A stretch of DNA of 39,504 nt from a virus. The DNA lies in the IMG/VR virus record IMGVR_UViG_3300023184_000269, positions 1 to 39,504 of that record, one strand, 5' to 3'. How positions within the stretch are numbered: position 1 is the first letter of the stretch; each line of letters begins with the position of its first letter. Of this stretch, positions 6,941 to 14,479 are shown in pieces. The notes beneath the pieces are model-generated. The model saw nothing but the letters and a program-made list of their open reading frames with translations. It had not been told where the DNA came from and did no database searches. The position numbers and the translations under genes were made by a program.

Positions 6941-7596
6941 CTGTTTTTATGGTAATAATCAATTGCTTTAACTAGACCTTCAATATGGTCTTGTGTTTTC
7001 TCTTTGAATATCATTGGTTGTTCGTTGTCTACGGCCATAATGATAATCAAATCATCAATAGGTGTACCAACCAATTCTTCATACATCAATGCATATGCAG
7101 TACATTGCCAAAAATAATCCAAAATATCTTCACGTTTTTTAATCTTCTTTGATGTTTTGAAATCAATGACTGATAACTTACCCTCATACTCACCAATACA
7201 ATCTACACGACCTGCCAATCCTAGTTGTGCAGACCACAATCCGACCTCTTGGTAGTGTATATTATTGATTTTGTTTAGATGTGGTTTGATTGATATGAAC
7301 ATCTCTTTGGCATCAGGCATAACAGTGCCTGGTGGTTTTGTTTCATTGTTCAAATAATATTCACACATGGTATGCATATTGGTACCACGGGATGTAGCAT
7401 GTTTGGAGATTTTGTTTGCAACTTCTTCACCAACTCTACGGCGCCATGCCATGATGGCCTCTTTTTTCTGAGCACCCACCACTGTGGTCACTGACGGTAA
7501 TTTTTTACCATCAGGTGTAACATAATATCTTTTTCCGTCAGGAAAAGTTTGAGATTCAATTTTTGGAATCTCTTTTGGTGGACAATAATTAAACAT
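6937..7596 (-). CDS. PD-(D/E)XK (RecB-like) nuclease
   Basis: 219 residues. RGTNMH (70-75) is the helix often preceding RecB/Cas4-type nuclease cores, then Glu118, GRVDCIGEY (129-137, metal ligand Asp132), VIDFKTSK (143-150, Asp145 and Lys147) and YFWQCTAYALMYE (motif with Gln164). This is the RecB/MGME1-type exonuclease pattern. It is likely a phage DNA-processing or recombination nuclease. It overlaps the upstream oxygenase gene by 8 bp, so it shares the transcript of the modification cluster although its own role is probably DNA metabolism. Confidence 0.8.
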   Translation of the reverse strand: MFNYCPPKEIPKIESQTFPDGKRYYVTPDGKKLPSVTTVVGAQKKEAIMAWRRRVGEEVANKISKHATSRGTNMHTMCEYYLNNETKPPGTVMPDAKEMFISIKPHLNKINNIHYQEVGLWSAQLGLAGRVDCIGEYEGKLSVIDFKTSKKIKKREDILDYFWQCTAYALMYEELVGTPIDDLIIIMAVDNEQPMIFKEKTQDHIEGLVKAIDYYHKNS

Positions 7597-8245
7597 AATC
7601 TATATCAAATACAAACACATTACGTGGCAACTCACTCTTGTGTACACTAACTGCGTGCCATACTTCTGGTGAATGTATTATCAACTCTCCTTTATTTGGT
7701 TTTAAACGATAAGTATCTGATTCTTCATACTCATCAATATATGTATCTTCTTTTCCATTGCGTATAAAAACCAAATCGGAACTTCCTTCTGGTACATCGA
7801 CATACAATATGGCCACAGCATCTGGACAAAAGTCTTTTTCGGAGTGGTTTGTCCTATCTTTCATGTATTTGTCTAACTTAACATGATTGTGACACATTCC
7901 TTGGCCACCTAAAAATAATCGGTTAGCCCAACTTCTCTTATAATACACTGATTTTACATCTTTGGCAATACCTAATTCTTTATGTACCAAAATTAATTGT
8001 TGTGTGAGCCATTCCACTAATCTGGAAGAACCTGGTAAATAAACTAAATCAAGATATGGTTGGCCAACCGTTGTTCGACCCGCACCTTTATGAGAATCAC
8101 CACTATTTTCACGTTTTCTGTTTATTACATCTGGCATAGCAAAAAGGTGATTGACACTTTTATCCAAATATTCATTGCGATACAAAGTTTCATCTTCACA
8201 TTGAATCTTGATAACATTACTACCAAATACGTTCTCTATTTTCAT
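7589..8245 (-). CDS. Putative Fe(II)/2-oxoglutarate oxygenase
   Basis: 218 residues. A cupin-like pattern is visible: CHNHVKLD (His119 and His121), the strand AVAILYVDVPEGSSDLVFIRN, then GELIIHSPEVWHAVSVHKSELPRNVFVFD with predicted ligand His197 and 2-oxoglutarate-binding Arg208. This resembles phage proteins of the 2OG-FeII_Oxy_5 type, where HxH can replace HxD. Possible reaction: hydroxylation of a protein or peptide side chain. It overlaps the radical SAM gene by 4 bp, linking it to the modification cluster. Confidence 0.65.
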   Translation of the reverse strand: MKIENVFGSNVIKIQCEDETLYRNEYLDKSVNHLFAMPDVINRKRENSGDSHKGAGRTTVGQPYLDLVYLPGSSRLVEWLTQQLILVHKELGIAKDVKSVYYKRSWANRLFLGGQGMCHNHVKLDKYMKDRTNHSEKDFCPDAVAILYVDVPEGSSDLVFIRNGKEDTYIDEYEESDTYRLKPNKGELIIHSPEVWHAVSVHKSELPRNVFVFDIDYV

Positions 8246-9774
8246 AGTATTAAATTTTTATATTCCTCAACCTTAATTCGGTTTAATTCCGGAATATTAT
8301 ATTTTACAATCAATTCATTTTCAGTCATCTCAAACATATCTTCATATGTGACACCTAAATTGGCCATGTTGTGCATACCAAAAGCAGCAATTTTATTTTT
8401 TGGTGCTCTAAACTGATGAAAATATTCACTTATGTTTTTGCATGTACTATAATTTAACTGTTGTGATGGTAATTTCCAATTGGATATCGTATCAAATTCA
8501 TAACCATATATCTGAGGATTTATACCAAATTTAGAATTAAATTTATCTAACTCTTTATTTTTATAATTGAATAACATGAGTGGATAGAACATAATTTCTT
8601 GTAATGGATTATCATCTTCTAAAGACCATTCAAACAATTCATCAAAGTATTCTCTAGTGTCATAGGGTAAACCTAAAATGAAACCAGAACTGATATTGAC
8701 TTTGTTTTTCCATTGTTCTGCAAGCCAATATAATCTATCCTTTACCTTGTTTGGATGTAATCCTTTACCAATAGCTTTAGCACTGTCTGGTTGTAAAGTT
8801 TCGATGCCAAAAAATGTTCCAATCAAACCCATTTCTGTCAGCAACTGTGCTTGATGTGGATATTTGTTCATCAAGTCTATTCTAAGATAACATGTTAGTT
8901 TTGGTTTAAATGGTAAACTGGTGAACATTTTGTGTAGTTCTTCGAGTTTATCATTATCATCATTAAAGGTATCGTCCGTAAGATAATAAGAAGTAGTTCC
9001 GGTCGATTCATATGTTCGTATTAATTCATCCTTAACTTCTTCATAAGACCTAAGATAAGTACCTTTCTTTTTACCTAGTAAAGGGTAGGAACAAAATTTG
9101 CATTTGAAAATACAACCTCTGGCCATCTCAATTGGTAAACTTTCACCTCGTAATATATTGAAATTTTTATCCCACCAATGAGTGGAGATGCAATCCATTT
9201 TTGGTTCATCATATTTGAAAGAATCTATTTTACAACTCTTTACACCATCAATTTGAATTTCTTCAGCATGTTCAATTGATTGTTTTTTTCCTGCGAGGTA
9301 ATCGGTCAAATCTAAAACGGATACATCAGCATTACCCAAAACATAATAATCTATCTTATTATCAAGCATTACAAATGGTGTCTTTGTTCCACCATATACG
9401 ATTTTCGCATCACTATTAGTTCTTATGTAATCAAGTATCTCATGAATTTGTGCAGGATCAGATTTCCAGTACATTTCATTTTTCATTGAACATTTTTCAT
9501 CATGAGTTTTATTTTTAACAATATCATTGCCCGTTTCTGGCCAGAAAAACGTTGAACTGAATCCTACCCATATCGTTTTTTTATCCAAGTGTTTTTTCAA
9601 AACTTGTAGTATTTCTTCTTTCGTAAATTCAACAACATAATCAAAAACAAAGGTGGAATAACCAGATTCAATTAGTGCAGAAGCAATTCTATATGCACCA
9701 AGACTTCTTTGTATCTTACTGTAATTTTCTGTAGGATTTGTTATTCCACCATTTATGATGATGCACTCAGCCAT
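8242..9774 (-). CDS. B12-binding-type radical SAM protein
   Basis: 510 residues. The N-terminal ~170 residues look like the Rossmann domain found in front of B12-dependent radical SAM enzymes, but I see no DxHxxG cobalamin motif. The radical SAM core starts with ARGCIFKCKFCSY (Cys221, Cys225, Cys228 for the 4Fe-4S cluster) and continues with YYLTDDTFN, a GIETLQPDS strand and GFILGLPYDT. Family members methylate or rearrange unactivated carbons. Overlaps of 8 bp with the halogenase and 4 bp with the downstream oxygenase indicate one operon. Substrate unknown; the Asn-Cys-repeat protein is the obvious candidate. Confidence 0.8.
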   Translation of the reverse strand: MAECIIINGGITNPTENYSKIQRSLGAYRIASALIESGYSTFVFDYVVEFTKEEILQVLKKHLDKKTIWVGFSSTFFWPETGNDIVKNKTHDEKCSMKNEMYWKSDPAQIHEILDYIRTNSDAKIVYGGTKTPFVMLDNKIDYYVLGNADVSVLDLTDYLAGKKQSIEHAEEIQIDGVKSCKIDSFKYDEPKMDCISTHWWDKNFNILRGESLPIEMARGCIFKCKFCSYPLLGKKKGTYLRSYEEVKDELIRTYESTGTTSYYLTDDTFNDDNDKLEELHKMFTSLPFKPKLTCYLRIDLMNKYPHQAQLLTEMGLIGTFFGIETLQPDSAKAIGKGLHPNKVKDRLYWLAEQWKNKVNISSGFILGLPYDTREYFDELFEWSLEDDNPLQEIMFYPLMLFNYKNKELDKFNSKFGINPQIYGYEFDTISNWKLPSQQLNYSTCKNISEYFHQFRAPKNKIAAFGMHNMANLGVTYEDMFEMTENELIVKYNIPELNRIKVEEYKNLIL

Positions 9775-11275
9775 TCTTCATTTTCTCCAAAAAATCATAG
9801 TGATTCATTAGTTTTTTACTCATTTGTTCAAACAAACCTTGTACATCCAAATTGAGTTGTTCTTCATTTACATATTTTTTTGCATTAATTGCATTAAAGT
9901 GTTTAATACCTGAACCAACTTGTAACCAACTGTGTTCACTGAACATACCATTGAATGTGATATTAGAACCAATACGTGATGTTTCTATTGCGTCAACATA
10001 ATCTAAAACTTGTTGTTTCGGTAAATCATCAATACAAAAATCATTCAAACTTTTGAGGAAATGTGGAGTCTTATTTTTTGTTCTGAAATTTCTCCAAAAT
10101 TCACTATCTTCTCTTTTACTCAGATAGTGAAAATGAATGAAATTCAAAATATCAAGATTAATTCTTTTAGTTGTATCATTAAAGTATTTTTGTTCAATTA
10201 AGTCCTGATTAATTAAAGCATCTTTGATTTTTCCCCAATAATTTAACATGAGTATTGTGGTCCAAATACTTGTTGCCTCAAGTGGCTCAACAAAACTCGC
10301 ACTCAATCCTAGTGCAATACAGTTCTTAATACAACCATCATCATAACAACCAGGATCAAAACTAAACATTCTTGGACTGTTTATCTCATGGCCAAGATAT
10401 TCTTCTAATTCTTGCTTGATTTCTTCATCTGTTGCATAGTTTGAATCGAAAACATAACCACATCCAAATCTACCTTGAACTGGAATTTTCCACATCCAAC
10501 CATGTTTCATAGCAATTGATTCTGTATATGGTGGTATTTCTTTTGTGTCATTCTGTAGAAAGAATGGCATGGCTCGGTTCATTGGCAAATATTCTTTATA
10601 AGAATTCCAATTAGACTTATAAAATTTACCAATAATTAGACGTTTGAAGCCTGAACAATCAAATGCATAATCTGTATCAATCTGTGAAGCAGATTTCAAT
10701 CCAAAACCAGTGATGTAATCGTTATTATCAACTTTAATCTCAACAACTTCATCATCTATTAAATTAATACCTCTTTCTAGCCCAATAGTTTGTAGGTATT
10801 TGGCTAATAGGTTTGCATCAAAATGTAATGCATCATTCCCAATTTTAACAAAATTGTTTTGATATTGTACTTTGTTTTCTTCAGATAATTTTGTGGCCAA
10901 CTGTACATCATTATAACAATCACCCTCTGAAATTTTTTGAAATTGATAATTACTTAAATCAATTATATCTCCACCTAATGAACCTATTAGTGGTCCTTCA
11001 AATGTGTGATAGAAGTGTTTACCATCACCGTTCCAGTTTGTAAATTTGATGTTATTTTTTATAGTTCCTTTAGCGTGTTTTATGATACCACTAACAGGAA
11101 TATCAATAGATTTTAAAAAATCAATAAAAATTGGTGTGGTGCCTTCACCTGCACCCAATATTCCAATTTCACTACTAGCAATAACTGAAACATTGTCATC
11201 AGGACAATTCTTTTTTACAAATAATGCGGTCAACCAACCAGCGGTACCGCCGCCGACAATCGTATAATTTTTCAT
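9767..11275 (-). CDS. FAD-dependent tryptophan halogenase family protein
   Basis: 502 residues, normal for the family. FAD-binding GGGTAG at 8-13; GAGEGTTP; Lys73 in the TIKNNIKFTNW segment at the place of the catalytic lysine (Lys79 in PrnA); the signature WMWKIP (WxWxIP) at 260-265; and FVEPLEATS (328-336) corresponding to the conserved catalytic-glutamate region. These enzymes use FADH2, O2 and halide to halogenate aromatic substrates, usually tryptophan. In this operon the likely target is a Trp of the cluster's peptide, which ends in Trp. No flavin reductase is seen nearby, so the host would supply FADH2. No clear RBS precedes the ATG. Confidence 0.88.
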   Translation of the reverse strand: MKNYTIVGGGTAGWLTALFVKKNCPDDNVSVIASSEIGILGAGEGTTPIFIDFLKSIDIPVSGIIKHAKGTIKNNIKFTNWNGDGKHFYHTFEGPLIGSLGGDIIDLSNYQFQKISEGDCYNDVQLATKLSEENKVQYQNNFVKIGNDALHFDANLLAKYLQTIGLERGINLIDDEVVEIKVDNNDYITGFGLKSASQIDTDYAFDCSGFKRLIIGKFYKSNWNSYKEYLPMNRAMPFFLQNDTKEIPPYTESIAMKHGWMWKIPVQGRFGCGYVFDSNYATDEEIKQELEEYLGHEINSPRMFSFDPGCYDDGCIKNCIALGLSASFVEPLEATSIWTTILMLNYWGKIKDALINQDLIEQKYFNDTTKRINLDILNFIHFHYLSKREDSEFWRNFRTKNKTPHFLKSLNDFCIDDLPKQQVLDYVDAIETSRIGSNITFNGMFSEHSWLQVGSGIKHFNAINAKKYVNEEQLNLDVQGLFEQMSKKLMNHYDFLEKMKNG

Positions 11276-11287
11276 AATAAATGTTTT

Positions 11288-11950
11288 TTAAAGTTCAACT
11301 TTGGCCGCTGTGAAGTTTTCCGACTTCGTGTTTTCGTAATAATCTTGAATTGCATTTAATATAGATTCATCATGTGATGAGATATCATCAATAACTGATT
11401 TTGGAATAATAAATCTATACGTTGCCGAATCTATGTAATCATATAATAACGTACAACTGAATAATAGATTTTCTTCATCGTTATAAATTTCATAAAAATT
11501 TGGATCTTTAATAAATTCAAATTGATTTATTCTTCTCAACAACTCTTTTACAACATCTGTTTGTTCTTCTGGTGAAACTACATTGTCAATATTAACAATT
11601 ATATTAGTTTCAGGATTTAAGAAAAAGAAAGATTCAATAAGATGATTATCCTTTGTTAACAAACACATTTCATTATTCTTTGTATTCAAAAAGCCTTTTA
11701 TAATGGATTCAAGTTTTTCCTTATTTTCGATTATGTATGGTGATATGGTAGACTTACATATTGACTTAGGCACAACTAAGTCAATATAATTTTTATCATC
11801 ATATATCTTAAATAATAAACTATCAATATTATTAAGTTGTTGTCTCCAAGAAATTGGAACAAGGTCGACCTCAACATTAACAACAGTAGATATAGATTTT
11901 AAGAAATCGATATGATCCTGCAAGTCTTTTGTTATATTTAAACCAGACAT
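11288..11950 (-). CDS. Unknown protein of the modification cluster
   Basis: 220 residues, not recognised. No signal peptide, membrane segment or metal motif. It appears to be two similar halves of alpha/beta type: each holds a phrase such as NIDSLLFKIYDDKNYIDLVVPKSI (first) and NLLFSCTLLYDYIDSATYRFIIPKSV (second), suggesting an internal duplication. Strong RBS (GGAGG), and the ATG follows the maturase stop directly (TAAATG), so it is translationally coupled to the SPASM enzyme. It may be a peptide-binding partner or chaperone for the maturation enzymes; that is inference. Confidence 0.7.
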   Translation of the reverse strand: MSGLNITKDLQDHIDFLKSISTVVNVEVDLVPISWRQQLNNIDSLLFKIYDDKNYIDLVVPKSICKSTISPYIIENKEKLESIIKGFLNTKNNEMCLLTKDNHLIESFFFLNPETNIIVNIDNVVSPEEQTDVVKELLRRINQFEFIKDPNFYEIYNDEENLLFSCTLLYDYIDSATYRFIIPKSVIDDISSHDESILNAIQDYYENTKSENFTAAKVEL

Positions 11951-13396
11951 TTATGCCTCCACTCTAGATTTTCCGTAAATTTGAACTTCATCAATGGAAC
12001 CAATTTTTTCAGCCACAACTTTAATTGGAATAATCTTATTAACTTTCTTTTCTTCGTGCTTGTATGCTGTGCCCCAAATGTCCTGTCTGTCTAAAGGTAA
12101 ACCATCACCTTTAATTGTTACAGGAATAAAACCATCAGTAATCTTCTCAATGGCCAAAGCAAACAAAACAACATTGTCTGAATAGGCATTTGCACAGGTT
12201 ACGTCCCAATGTTTTCCGTCCAAATACATACATGAACCCTTACATAAGTGTAAAACTGGACAATCAGTACAACTAATTTCATTTTTTCTAGCTTTCCAAT
12301 GTGTGACAGATTTTAATTCAACGTTATCATAATCTGATAAATTGCCAGCTAGATGAGATTCACCATTTTTACTGGTTTCAACTACAGAAACATTTTGGCA
12401 TGTAACTACGTTGCCTTTTAAATCCAAAGCGATAGTTTCTGGTTTTTCCATACCACATTTTTGGCCAACATATTTTGACTCAACGTGCGCCAAAGTGTTT
12501 CTAATAAAATCATCAATTTTTTGAAACGTTAAGTGAAAATTGATTTCTCCATTGGTTGAATAGATATCATTAAATGATGTTTTTCTGTAATTAAAATGTT
12601 CATCTAATGTAATTAAAGAATTGTTAACTGCAGCATCATCATATGCATCAATGAAACCACCTTCACCAATCGTGACTGATTTGTCACCTGTTAATTCAAA
12701 GAAGTAATTGTATATAGCTTCACGACTTATGTTTTTATTATTCATCATGGCATTGAAACTCAATCTTCCTTGTGGTGCCATGACCTTATAAAATTCCAGT
12801 ATAATTTTTTTCTTTTCTGGATCATCGAATGGGTCAGGTCCACGAACAAATTGACCTGGTCCATCATGACTGATAGCCACACCAAAACCCATATAGTATA
12901 ACCAAGAACATATTTCTCTAGTTAATAGAGTGCCATTCGTCACCATGGTAAATTTAACTTTATTATTCCAGTGACTGTACTTTTCTGCAAATGCTTCTGC
13001 TAAAGGTTTTAATGTTTTCCAATAAACGAGAGGTTCGCCGCCCCAGAACTCAACGAGTAGACCTTGTTCTTCCGTAAGATTTAATACTTCCAATTTTTTC
13101 ATAAAATCTTCAATATCTTTTTTACTGGTTTCTGGCGGTCTCTCAACAAATCTTTGAGAACAATAATCGCAAGAATAGTTACAAGACAAACCTAATTGAA
13201 TTTTAATTGTACTAATGTTTTTGGATTTTTTTAGTGGCATATCCTTGGAAAAAGGAATAGTCTCTTGCATTGGTGGTTTTTCAATTGTTGGATACTCAAA
13301 AACAGAACCATTAGATTCACTCAATGTTCCAGAAACATTATCATAATAAAAAGTTTTTTGTTCACCTTTTTTTTCAGCACAAATTTCAAAAATCAT
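11951..13396 (-). CDS. Radical SAM/SPASM peptide or protein maturase
   Basis: 481 residues. CNYSCDYC (Cys72, Cys76, Cys79) binds the SAM cluster; FWGGEPLVYW is the GGEP motif; MVTNGTLLT follows. The C-terminal SPASM region has the expected cysteines (Cys in KCGMEK, VTCQN, CTDCPVLHLCKGSC and TCANAY) for auxiliary Fe-S clusters. SPASM enzymes install thioether, C-C or other crosslinks in peptides, or act as anaerobic sulfatase maturases. The gene starts 24 bp downstream of the Asn-Cys-repeat gene with RBS AAGGA, the usual layout of precursor and maturase. Substrate assignment is inference. Confidence 0.87.
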   Translation of the reverse strand: MIFEICAEKKGEQKTFYYDNVSGTLSESNGSVFEYPTIEKPPMQETIPFSKDMPLKKSKNISTIKIQLGLSCNYSCDYCSQRFVERPPETSKKDIEDFMKKLEVLNLTEEQGLLVEFWGGEPLVYWKTLKPLAEAFAEKYSHWNNKVKFTMVTNGTLLTREICSWLYYMGFGVAISHDGPGQFVRGPDPFDDPEKKKIILEFYKVMAPQGRLSFNAMMNNKNISREAIYNYFFELTGDKSVTIGEGGFIDAYDDAAVNNSLITLDEHFNYRKTSFNDIYSTNGEINFHLTFQKIDDFIRNTLAHVESKYVGQKCGMEKPETIALDLKGNVVTCQNVSVVETSKNGESHLAGNLSDYDNVELKSVTHWKARKNEISCTDCPVLHLCKGSCMYLDGKHWDVTCANAYSDNVVLFALAIEKITDGFIPVTIKGDGLPLDRQDIWGTAYKHEEKKVNKIIPIKVVAEKIGSIDEVQIYGKSRVEA

Positions 13397-13420: not shown

Positions 13421-13840
13421 TTACCAACAAGCACAAGCACAAATCCAACAGGCACAATTACAATTGATAGTAGTACCACTAGTAGTACAATTATACGTAC
13501 AGGCACAGTTGCAATTTGGTTGTAAAAAATTTTGTGTATCACAATTTGTACAGTTGACAGTACCACTTATCAGACAATTACCACAATTTTTATTACCACA
13601 ATTACAATTATTGGTACAATTACCATTACTACAATTCCCAGCCATGTTACTTTGATACCATGCTTTATTATGTACTGTATCTAAGTCCTTAACATCTGTA
13701 GAGCCGGCAATCACAGCTGTGCCAACAGTTCGTCTTGTGTTGTCTTTAACCCAAGACATAGATGGACTAGCGCCTGTGGCACTAGCTGTTTCAGTTTTTA
13801 CATCATTTAATGAAATTGCTCCGGTAGCTGGTGTTGTCAT
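13421..13840 (-). CDS. Asn-Cys-repeat protein, candidate modified precursor or virion protein
   Basis: 139 residues in two parts. Residues 1-69 have no cysteine and start with PATGAISLNDVKTE, like the N-terminal ISLND motif of many phage virion or fibre proteins. Residues 70-139 hold 18 cysteines; 13 are preceded by Asn, 4 by Ala and 1 by Ile. The end is CNCACWICACACW, so two of its four tryptophans (132 and 139) lie in the Cys tail. Immediately downstream are a SPASM maturase and a tryptophan halogenase; an oxygenase lies upstream. Best guess: substrate of this enzyme set, either a RiPP-like precursor with a leader or a virion-attached protein with a modified tail. It could instead be a metal-binding protein. 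Confidence 0.8.
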   Translation of the reverse strand: MTTPATGAISLNDVKTETASATGASPSMSWVKDNTRRTVGTAVIAGSTDVKDLDTVHNKAWYQSNMAGNCSNGNCTNNCNCGNKNCGNCLISGTVNCTNCDTQNFLQPNCNCACTYNCTTSGTTINCNCACWICACACW

Positions 13841-13867: not shown

Positions 13868-13875
13868 TATTTATG
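13868..13875 (-). promoter_or_regulatory. Near-consensus late promoter (CATAAATA)
   Basis: One mismatch to TATAAATA, 28 bp upstream of the Asn-Cys-repeat gene, overlapping the stop of the preceding oxygenase. It could give the precursor gene extra late transcription. Weak evidence. Confidence 0.35.
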
Positions 13876-14479
13876 ATAGGTTATAATGATGGTACCTGTC
13901 TGATATTTGATTTTGATTCTGATATTCAATAGAAAAATTATTAAGGAAGAAGTTTAATGTTAAACGGGAATCATCTACAGTTTTACCAAATCCAAAATTG
14001 GCGGAATGCATATAGTCACCTCGATACAAAACCATTCTATTATATTTGTATCCAAAATTACATTCTCCGTCTTTAATTATTTTTGTTCCATGATTATTAA
14101 ATCGGTCTTTGAAATGTTTGTTCAAGTATACCACACCAGAAAATAATGTTGTATCTTTGTGTGGCCACTTATCATTAGGTATATCATACTCTGTTACATA
14201 ATGAAATAAACAAACTGATTGACATTTAACAATAATATTACAGTCATCTCTAACGTAATCTTTGAATGTAAAAGCCTTATTTATTATCACATTGGTAATT
14301 TTTTTATGTAAATTTTCATCCAAGTAAGATAGTTGTAAGGTTCTTTTACCGCTGTAAGTGATACCACTACTTAATGTAGGGTTTTCTTCGCAAGAATAAT
14401 ATTTCTGTCTCTTAGCTATTTCCACAATCTCATCTGGATCATCGAATATGTCATCAATACACATTATATCTGAAAACAT
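13871..14479 (-). CDS. Fe(II)/2-oxoglutarate oxygenase
   Basis: 202 residues with a clean facial triad: WPHKDTTLFSGVVYL (His107-x-Asp109), DYMHSANF (His158) and Arg172 in DSRLTLNFFL, 14 residues after His158, as is typical for the 2-oxoglutarate salt bridge. The fold resembles small phage or bacterial oxygenases that I recall near tryptophan halogenase genes. Likely hydroxylates an amino-acid side chain. First gene of the modification cluster; the precursor gene follows after 30 bp. Confidence 0.8.
   Translation of the reverse strand: MFSDIMCIDDIFDDPDEIVEIAKRQKYYSCEENPTLSSGITYSGKRTLQLSYLDENLHKKITNVIINKAFTFKDYVRDDCNIIVKCQSVCLFHYVTEYDIPNDKWPHKDTTLFSGVVYLNKHFKDRFNNHGTKIIKDGECNFGYKYNRMVLYRGDYMHSANFGFGKTVDDSRLTLNFFLNNFSIEYQNQNQISDRYHHYNLS

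Follow-up and report, generated by a model that had tools for sequence, protein, structure and literature searches.

Asn-Cys-rich tails of phage proteins are paired with a radical SAM maturase and may form enzyme-modified tail tips

INTRODUCTION

The window analyzed here is the whole of a 39.5-kb virus record (IMGVR_UViG_3300023184_000269, 39,504 nt), which outside the operon described below looks like a T4-like phage (rIIA, single-strand DNA-binding protein, PhoH). One of its minus-strand genes encodes a short protein, P0001, whose C-terminal half is rich in Asn-Cys pairs and ends in Trp, and the genes that follow encode a radical SAM enzyme and a tryptophan halogenase. The locus raises the question of whether P0001 is the precursor of a free peptide or a protein of the virion, and what the neighbouring enzymes do to its tail. 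A sequence-only reading had offered both layouts, leader plus core or virion anchor plus modified display tail.

RESULTS

A protein with a constrained Asn-Cys tail

The features of the locus, all on the minus strand, are as follows:

13424..13840 (stop 13421-13423), minus strand: P0001, predicted modified tail protein of 139 aa (translation, homologues, purifying selection)
13661..13840, minus strand: N-terminal module of P0001, residues 1-60, beginning MTTPATGAISLND, a probable virion-attachment module (profile match)
13424..13636, minus strand: (Asn-Cys)-rich tail of P0001, residues 69-139, predicted radical SAM substrate (composition; two-way association with the radical SAM gene)
13424..13426, minus strand: C-terminal Trp139, predicted halogenation site (co-occurrence of Trp and halogenase)
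13868..13875, minus strand: CATAAATA, upstream of P0001, a T4-type late-promoter-like motif that differs from TATAAATA at 1 position (motif scan)
13871..14479, minus strand: P0008, upstream of the precursor gene, with a DUF6445-type C-terminal match, conserved in several close loci
11951..13396, minus strand: P0002, radical SAM/SPASM maturase of phrog_1802 (CNYSCDYC and conserved SPASM cysteines)
11288..11950, minus strand: P0003, fast-evolving partner protein of halogenase-type loci (modelled with two alpha/beta repeats)
9767..11275, minus strand: P0004, flavin-dependent tryptophan halogenase (Pfam PF04820, E 4e-91, 306 bits)
8242..9774, minus strand: P0005, accessory radical SAM protein related to B12-binding radical SAM families (CIFKCKFC)
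7589..8245, minus strand: P0006, accessory 2OG-Fe(II) oxygenase

The order is operon-like, running from P0001 through P0002, P0003, P0004, P0005 and P0006 to an exonuclease; P0005 is found in a subset of loci. By translation P0001 reads on the minus strand, the plus strand of 13421-13840 being non-coding. Its homologues are present in more than 100 phage contigs, and a tblastn search of P0001 against annotated phages gave no match. The Cys counts of the sequence-only reading hold: 13 of the 18 Cys follow Asn, 4 follow Ala and 1 follows Ile, all within residues 70-138 and without CC pairs, and the last 13 residues are CNCACWICACACW, as it had stated. The periodicity that it described stands as far as Asn before Cys is concerned but not as a fixed repeat: the spacings (5,4,2,5,3,8,3,10,2,2,4,9,2,2,3,2,2) are irregular, with 2-residue steps close to the C-terminus, and so describe a rule of Asn before Cys and no strict period. 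When the 71-residue tail was shuffled 200,000 times, 13 Asn-Cys pairs were reached 0 times (mean 4.3, maximum 12).

Among six close P0001 homologues we observed an amino acid identity of 75% in the tail versus 50% in the N-terminal half; third codon positions are the most variable, and synonymous changes occur at 13 of 17 conserved Cys columns. Pairwise comparison of the tail with P0001 of the window gave dN values of 0.10-0.19 and dS values of 0.31-1.73. These values (dN/dS well below 1) indicate strong purifying selection on the protein sequence of the tail, and P0001 is a real gene. The length of the Cys tail, which the sequence-only reading had suggested comparing between homologues, varies freely, and no fixed coordination motif was seen. 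A structure model of a long-form precursor did not resolve the Cys tail (pLDDT about 30) and was poor for the N-terminal module. One copy of the L002 precursor (L004, 9734-9988) carries a frameshift inside the Cys tail that leaves 84 aa; it adjoins an intact radical SAM gene and halogenase gene, and the frameshift is either a real mutation or an assembly error.

The tail and one radical SAM family accompany each other

Relatives of P0001 and P0002 were gathered from IMG/VR and from bacterial genomes, and the close radical SAM clade comprised 120 unique sequences scoring over 650 bits. In all but one locus of this clade with usable flanks, a Cys-rich protein, mostly sharing the N-terminal module of P0001, adjoins the radical SAM gene before or after it. 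Exceptions are contigs cut at the edge, the Achromobacter phages JWF and 2-1, where a fibre with the NC tail has a different N-terminus, and L007, a 44-kb contig in which the radical SAM gene is present and a tail protein was not detected. Loci with the same N-terminus and enzymes and no tail, the case that the sequence-only reading had named as speaking against it, were not found among those collected. Radical SAM relatives from bacterial genomes that score below about 350 bits are more distant; many of them occur without an NC tail and may act on other targets.

The converse test was independent of the radical SAM gene: we scanned DNA for NCNCNCNC and considered distinct viral ORFs with at least 3 kb downstream (n = 33). 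The repeat is almost always located at most 20 residues from the C-terminus of its ORF. A phrog_1802 radical SAM gene accompanies 32 of the 33 viral tails, and the 33rd has a weaker radical SAM gene 10 bp downstream. The pairing therefore holds in both directions, and it is present in more than a hundred phages and prophages, two of the phages being cultured; the chemistry performed on the tail can be proposed by analogy (see below). Tail and radical SAM gene also occur together in the cultured prophage hosts Limnohabitans, Polynucleobacter and Paraburkholderia. In Polynucleobacter necessarius (L198) the radical SAM gene is broken into two ORFs and a Cys-like position is missing from the fibre tail (NCNCDRNCGC), which looks like joint decay of enzyme and tail.

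Catalytic motifs of the operon enzymes

The CNYSCDYC motif of P0002 (C72, C76, C79) and seven cysteines of the SPASM region (C314, C333, C376, C379, C385, C389 and C401) are invariant in A1. Domain matches were obtained to PF04055 (E 1.3e-9) and to the SPASM model TIGR04085 (33.9 bits, above the cut-off of 27), so that P0002 belongs to the radical SAM/SPASM proteins by both its cluster motif and its C-terminal SPASM cysteines. Its best NCBIfam models are the geopeptide, PapB, QhpD and CcpM maturases, which rank above the sulfatase maturase; it scores below every curated equivalog cut-off (geopeptide 82 versus 400 bits, PapB 80.6 versus 340, QhpD 77 versus 453). Scores so far under the cut-offs place P0002 in a family of its own, outside all curated maturase families, and its reaction therefore cannot be read from family membership. 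P0004 retains the GxGxxG FAD motif, WxWxIP and, by alignment with PrnA, the catalytic Lys and Glu, which makes it a flavin-dependent tryptophan halogenase. For P0003, whose fold model is fair (pLDDT 82), a fold search gave no significant match; it is possibly a substrate scaffold. A defence system was considered and rejected: the PADLOC matches are generic (viperin-like radical SAM core, 2OG) and the locus lies within a phage.

The tail is carried by virion-type proteins

Using hhalign, the N-terminal module of P0001 could be aligned with Cys-free ISL-type phage proteins (96.7%, E 3.5e-10), the target being an alignment of only four Cys-free adhesin-like phage proteins. The module had a single match (L057, 6557-7645, E 1e-4), and the N-terminal 65 residues of one P0001 homologue gave only non-significant phage matches (E 3 and above). 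Judged from these alignments it is a probable virion-attachment module, and its resemblance to a virion module argues against a removable leader in P0001. It is the only virion-type module within P0001 itself, fibre modules occurring in the relatives. We also analyzed the late-promoter motif: in the 90 bp before the gene, exact TATAAATA occurs for 33% of the precursor genes versus 2% expected, for 3% of the radical SAM genes and for 0% of the halogenase genes. Its enrichment upstream of precursors is in keeping with a structural protein made late.

Prophages of various bacteria, Burkholderiales among them, carry the tails on proteins recognized as fibres by their collagen repeats or by PHROG tail-fibre matches. 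In the cultured phages JWF and 2-1, the radical SAM gene belongs to the tail operon and follows the central fibre gene; the JWF fibre gp028 reads ...NCNCDCNCNC-SCFPAGT, with a Hint domain directly after the tail. Collagen repeats, Peptidase_S74 domains, PHROG fibre matches and a place in the tail operon mark these relatives as tail fibres. The T4-like group has three main layouts, the short form of the window, a form of ~300 aa with a KIIC domain and a form ending in Peptidase_S74, the chaperone of endosialidase, which in L034 begins at Ser125, directly after Trp124. Chaperones of the endosialidase type are known to be removed by autocatalytic cleavage at a conserved Ser where the domain begins, and a Hint domain cleaves at its first Cys. 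With either domain starting right after the tail, the mature protein would end, after processing, with the tail or close to it. The C-terminal KIIC domain of the long precursors also ends a Gly-rich, poly-Pro protein without Cys tail in the cultured Synechococcus phage SynMITS9220M01_028 (L206, 3669-5519); this protein adjoins a fibre gene and ends in a hydrophobic helix.

Taken together, three lines of evidence speak strongly for a virion anchor plus modified display tail: an N-terminal module common to Cys-free adhesin-like proteins, relatives that carry the tail on tail fibres and a tail that tracks one radical SAM family both ways. The layout of leader plus core of a free peptide finds no support, the same tail being present on fibres and the N-terminal module being of the adhesin-like phage type. 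As far as sequence comparison can tell, P0001 is a virion-type protein and not a free peptide precursor.

A terminal Trp occurs together with the halogenase

For this comparison the Trp label was defined as 'last residue is Trp'; the definition 'any Trp in tail' was dropped, as it mis-parsed L046 and the S74/KIIC forms. We observed a strong halogenase in 24 of 24 Trp-ended short forms with enough flank, in 0 of 15 short forms not ending in Trp and in 0 of 51 KIIC forms, so that the terminal Trp and the halogenase are concordant in 39 of 39 assessable short forms. Two S74 forms with Trp directly before the chaperone domain both have a halogenase. In L360, which keeps an internal SWIC and is Cys-ended before S74, no halogenase is present in the 30-kb contig; together with the co-occurrence at the terminal position, this pattern favours Trp139 over Trp132 as the target. 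On the radical SAM tree the Trp and halogenase traits each change about twice, amounting to two joint changes, and the association therefore rests on few independent events; for this reason a Fisher p of 4e-11 was not used as proof. The earlier proposal that Trp is the halogenation site thus gains a perfect co-occurrence with the terminal Trp, within the limit set by those few events, and narrows to Trp139.

Six loci with Trp-less NC tails from one radical SAM lineage (L046, L111, L231, L253, L269, L272) encode, downstream of the radical SAM gene, a more distant flavoprotein of about 400 aa, which matches the halogenase profile at E 1e-19 to 1e-25 and is possibly a QhpG-like hydroxylase. The weak second flavoprotein near the Trp-less tails of L046, L111 and L231 was excluded from the halogenase counts.

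Many halogenases of the phage clade occur without a radical SAM gene. A pattern scan for ISL proteins gave 8 matches, two of which (in L467) were dropped as not being true ISL proteins, and an ISL-type adhesin gene is located just upstream in 6 of 37 rSAM-less halogenase loci with enough upstream sequence (L438 6370-7365, L441, L444, L445, L454, L456; MTLQGSGAISLSQIRNEL...SEFYGY). In cyanophage Syn10 (L051, 2314-6005) the halogenase genes come after Gly-rich tail-type genes. Both neighbourhoods suggest that phage halogenases may act on tail proteins generally, with ISL-type adhesins or Gly-rich tail proteins as possible native substrates of viral halogenases.

DISCUSSION

The pair of tail and maturase is real, conserved and widespread, and its most likely product is an enzyme-modified phage tail tip. 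We consider it probable that P0001 is a late-expressed tail-tip or fibre protein with a RiPP-like maturation, in which the radical SAM enzyme cross-links Cys, Trp is halogenated and the tip is displayed. As in a RiPP, a gene-encoded precursor adjoins its maturase. The N-terminal module would anchor P0001 to the particle, probably at the tail tip or a fibre, and P0002 would most likely join Cys thiols of the tail to carbons of neighbouring Asn/Asp through thioether bonds, by which the tip would become polycyclic, rigid and resistant to proteases. P0004 would then halogenate the C-terminal Trp in the subset of loci that includes the window, and P0003 with the accessory oxygenase P0006 and radical SAM protein P0005 may act on the same tail. 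On the virion, such a tip could serve receptor binding or stability.

The closest known mechanisms are QhpC/QhpD/QhpG and PapA/PapB. In QhpC, the quinohemoprotein amine dehydrogenase gamma-subunit, three Cys-to-Asp/Glu thioethers are formed by the radical SAM enzyme QhpD, and QhpG then modifies a Trp of the cross-linked chain; QhpG is a flavoprotein Trp hydroxylase, and its substrate channel is the counterpart of the HOCl tunnel in flavin halogenases (PMC7876137). As in our locus, a radical SAM enzyme and a flavoenzyme act on one Cys-rich polypeptide, and P0002 matches the QhpD model at E 8e-22. However, P0002 lies far below the QhpD cut-off, the flavoenzyme here is a halogenase and the target a phage tail protein with Asn-Cys repeats; a leader protease and an ABC exporter were not seen among the operon genes examined. 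The known QhpD acceptors are Asp/Glu, whereas Asn dominates in the P0001 tail. PapB forms six thioethers from Cys to the Asp beta-carbon in CX3D motifs and tolerates spacings of 0-6 residues (PMC9413430). Its model is matched by P0002 at E 1e-22, but the PapB acceptors are likewise Asp/Glu and the substrate here is a full virion-type protein in place of the ranthipeptide PapA. By analogy with both systems, Cys-to-Asx thioethers along the tail followed by Trp halogenation would be expected.

Two phage systems resemble the window more directly. VirX1 of cyanophage Syn10 (PDB 6QGM) is phage-borne and of the same halogenase superfamily as P0004 (E 3e-45), but has no adjoining radical SAM gene or Asn-Cys tail; in part of a review it is described on small-molecule substrates (PMC8407142). 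The tail operon of JWF and 2-1 has a phrog_1802 radical SAM protein with 46% identity over 86-91% of P0002 and the same tail on gp028; unlike in the window, the fibre has a Hint domain and a halogenase was not seen nearby. The family is annotated only as 'radical SAM domain-containing protein', and its records name neither substrate nor role. In the open-access literature, which omits some journals, we found no published description of a radical SAM enzyme with a phage tail or RiPP.

How else might the locus be read? With a radical SAM enzyme, a halogenase and an oxygenase, the operon looks like a RiPP cluster, and P0001 could be a free RiPP (leader plus core) that is secreted or released by the infected cell, for example as a bacteriocin. 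We give this hardly any credence: no protease or transporter was seen among the operon genes examined, fibres with collagen, S74 or Hint domains bear the same tail, the N-terminal module is of the adhesin-like phage type, and a late-promoter motif lies upstream. Also very improbable is a sulfatase-maturase-like conversion of Cys to formylglycine, by which aldehydes at the fibre tip would react with host amines. The JWF radical SAM gene, gp030, was indeed deposited as 'anaerobic sulfatase-maturating enzyme', and a profile search detects solved anaerobic sulfatase maturases over residues 72-390; however, the C-x-P-S-R context is absent, and NCBIfam puts the geopeptide, PapB, QhpD and CcpM models above that of the sulfatase maturase.

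That the tail instead forms a tip that binds metal, in the manner of a metallothionein or an Fe-S protein, or is rich in disulfides, the radical SAM enzyme doing something else such as a single modification, would suit 18 Cys in 70 residues without CC in an Asn-rich flexible context and a tail without a confident predicted fold. We nevertheless hold it to be quite unlikely, as metal binding leaves the near one-to-one link to the radical SAM gene across fibre, Hint, S74 and short forms unexplained and the tail varies freely in length with no fixed coordination motif. The role of the halogenase can be doubted separately. It could act on free tryptophan or a small molecule, the link to the terminal Trp being hitch-hiking in two phage lineages, and this would be compatible with the rest of the cross-linked tip that we prefer. 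About two changes per trait on the tree and the many phage halogenases without radical SAM gene or tail speak for it; we still think it unlikely, given the full concordance in the assessable short forms and the S74-tailed forms with halogenase that place Trp directly before the chaperone domain.

A wider version of the enzyme-modified tip is tentative, and we lean slightly against it as a whole. Here a system of the phage's own would turn the C-terminal tip of a fibre into a polycyclic thioether with an optional halogenated-Trp cap, the tail would stay exposed whichever of the exchangeable options follows it (none, Hint, endosialidase-type chaperone, KIIC), and flavin halogenases of phages would generally act on tail adhesins, the native substrate for VirX1-type enzymes. 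If the proposal is true, phage receptor-binding tips bear enzyme-made cross-links and halogens that sequence-based host-range prediction misses, radical SAM maturases gain a new substrate class, and viral tryptophan halogenases a testable proposal for their role.

Further observations in the window

An ORF at 20-1465 of the window has PGEPEKK-type repeats in tandem, together with a long stretch rich in Lys, Ala and Glu, near its start; its sole match is a PHROG of unknown function. Between 6500 and 15500 we counted ten terminator-like hairpins compared to 3.5 expected in shuffles, several of them inside opposite-strand genes.
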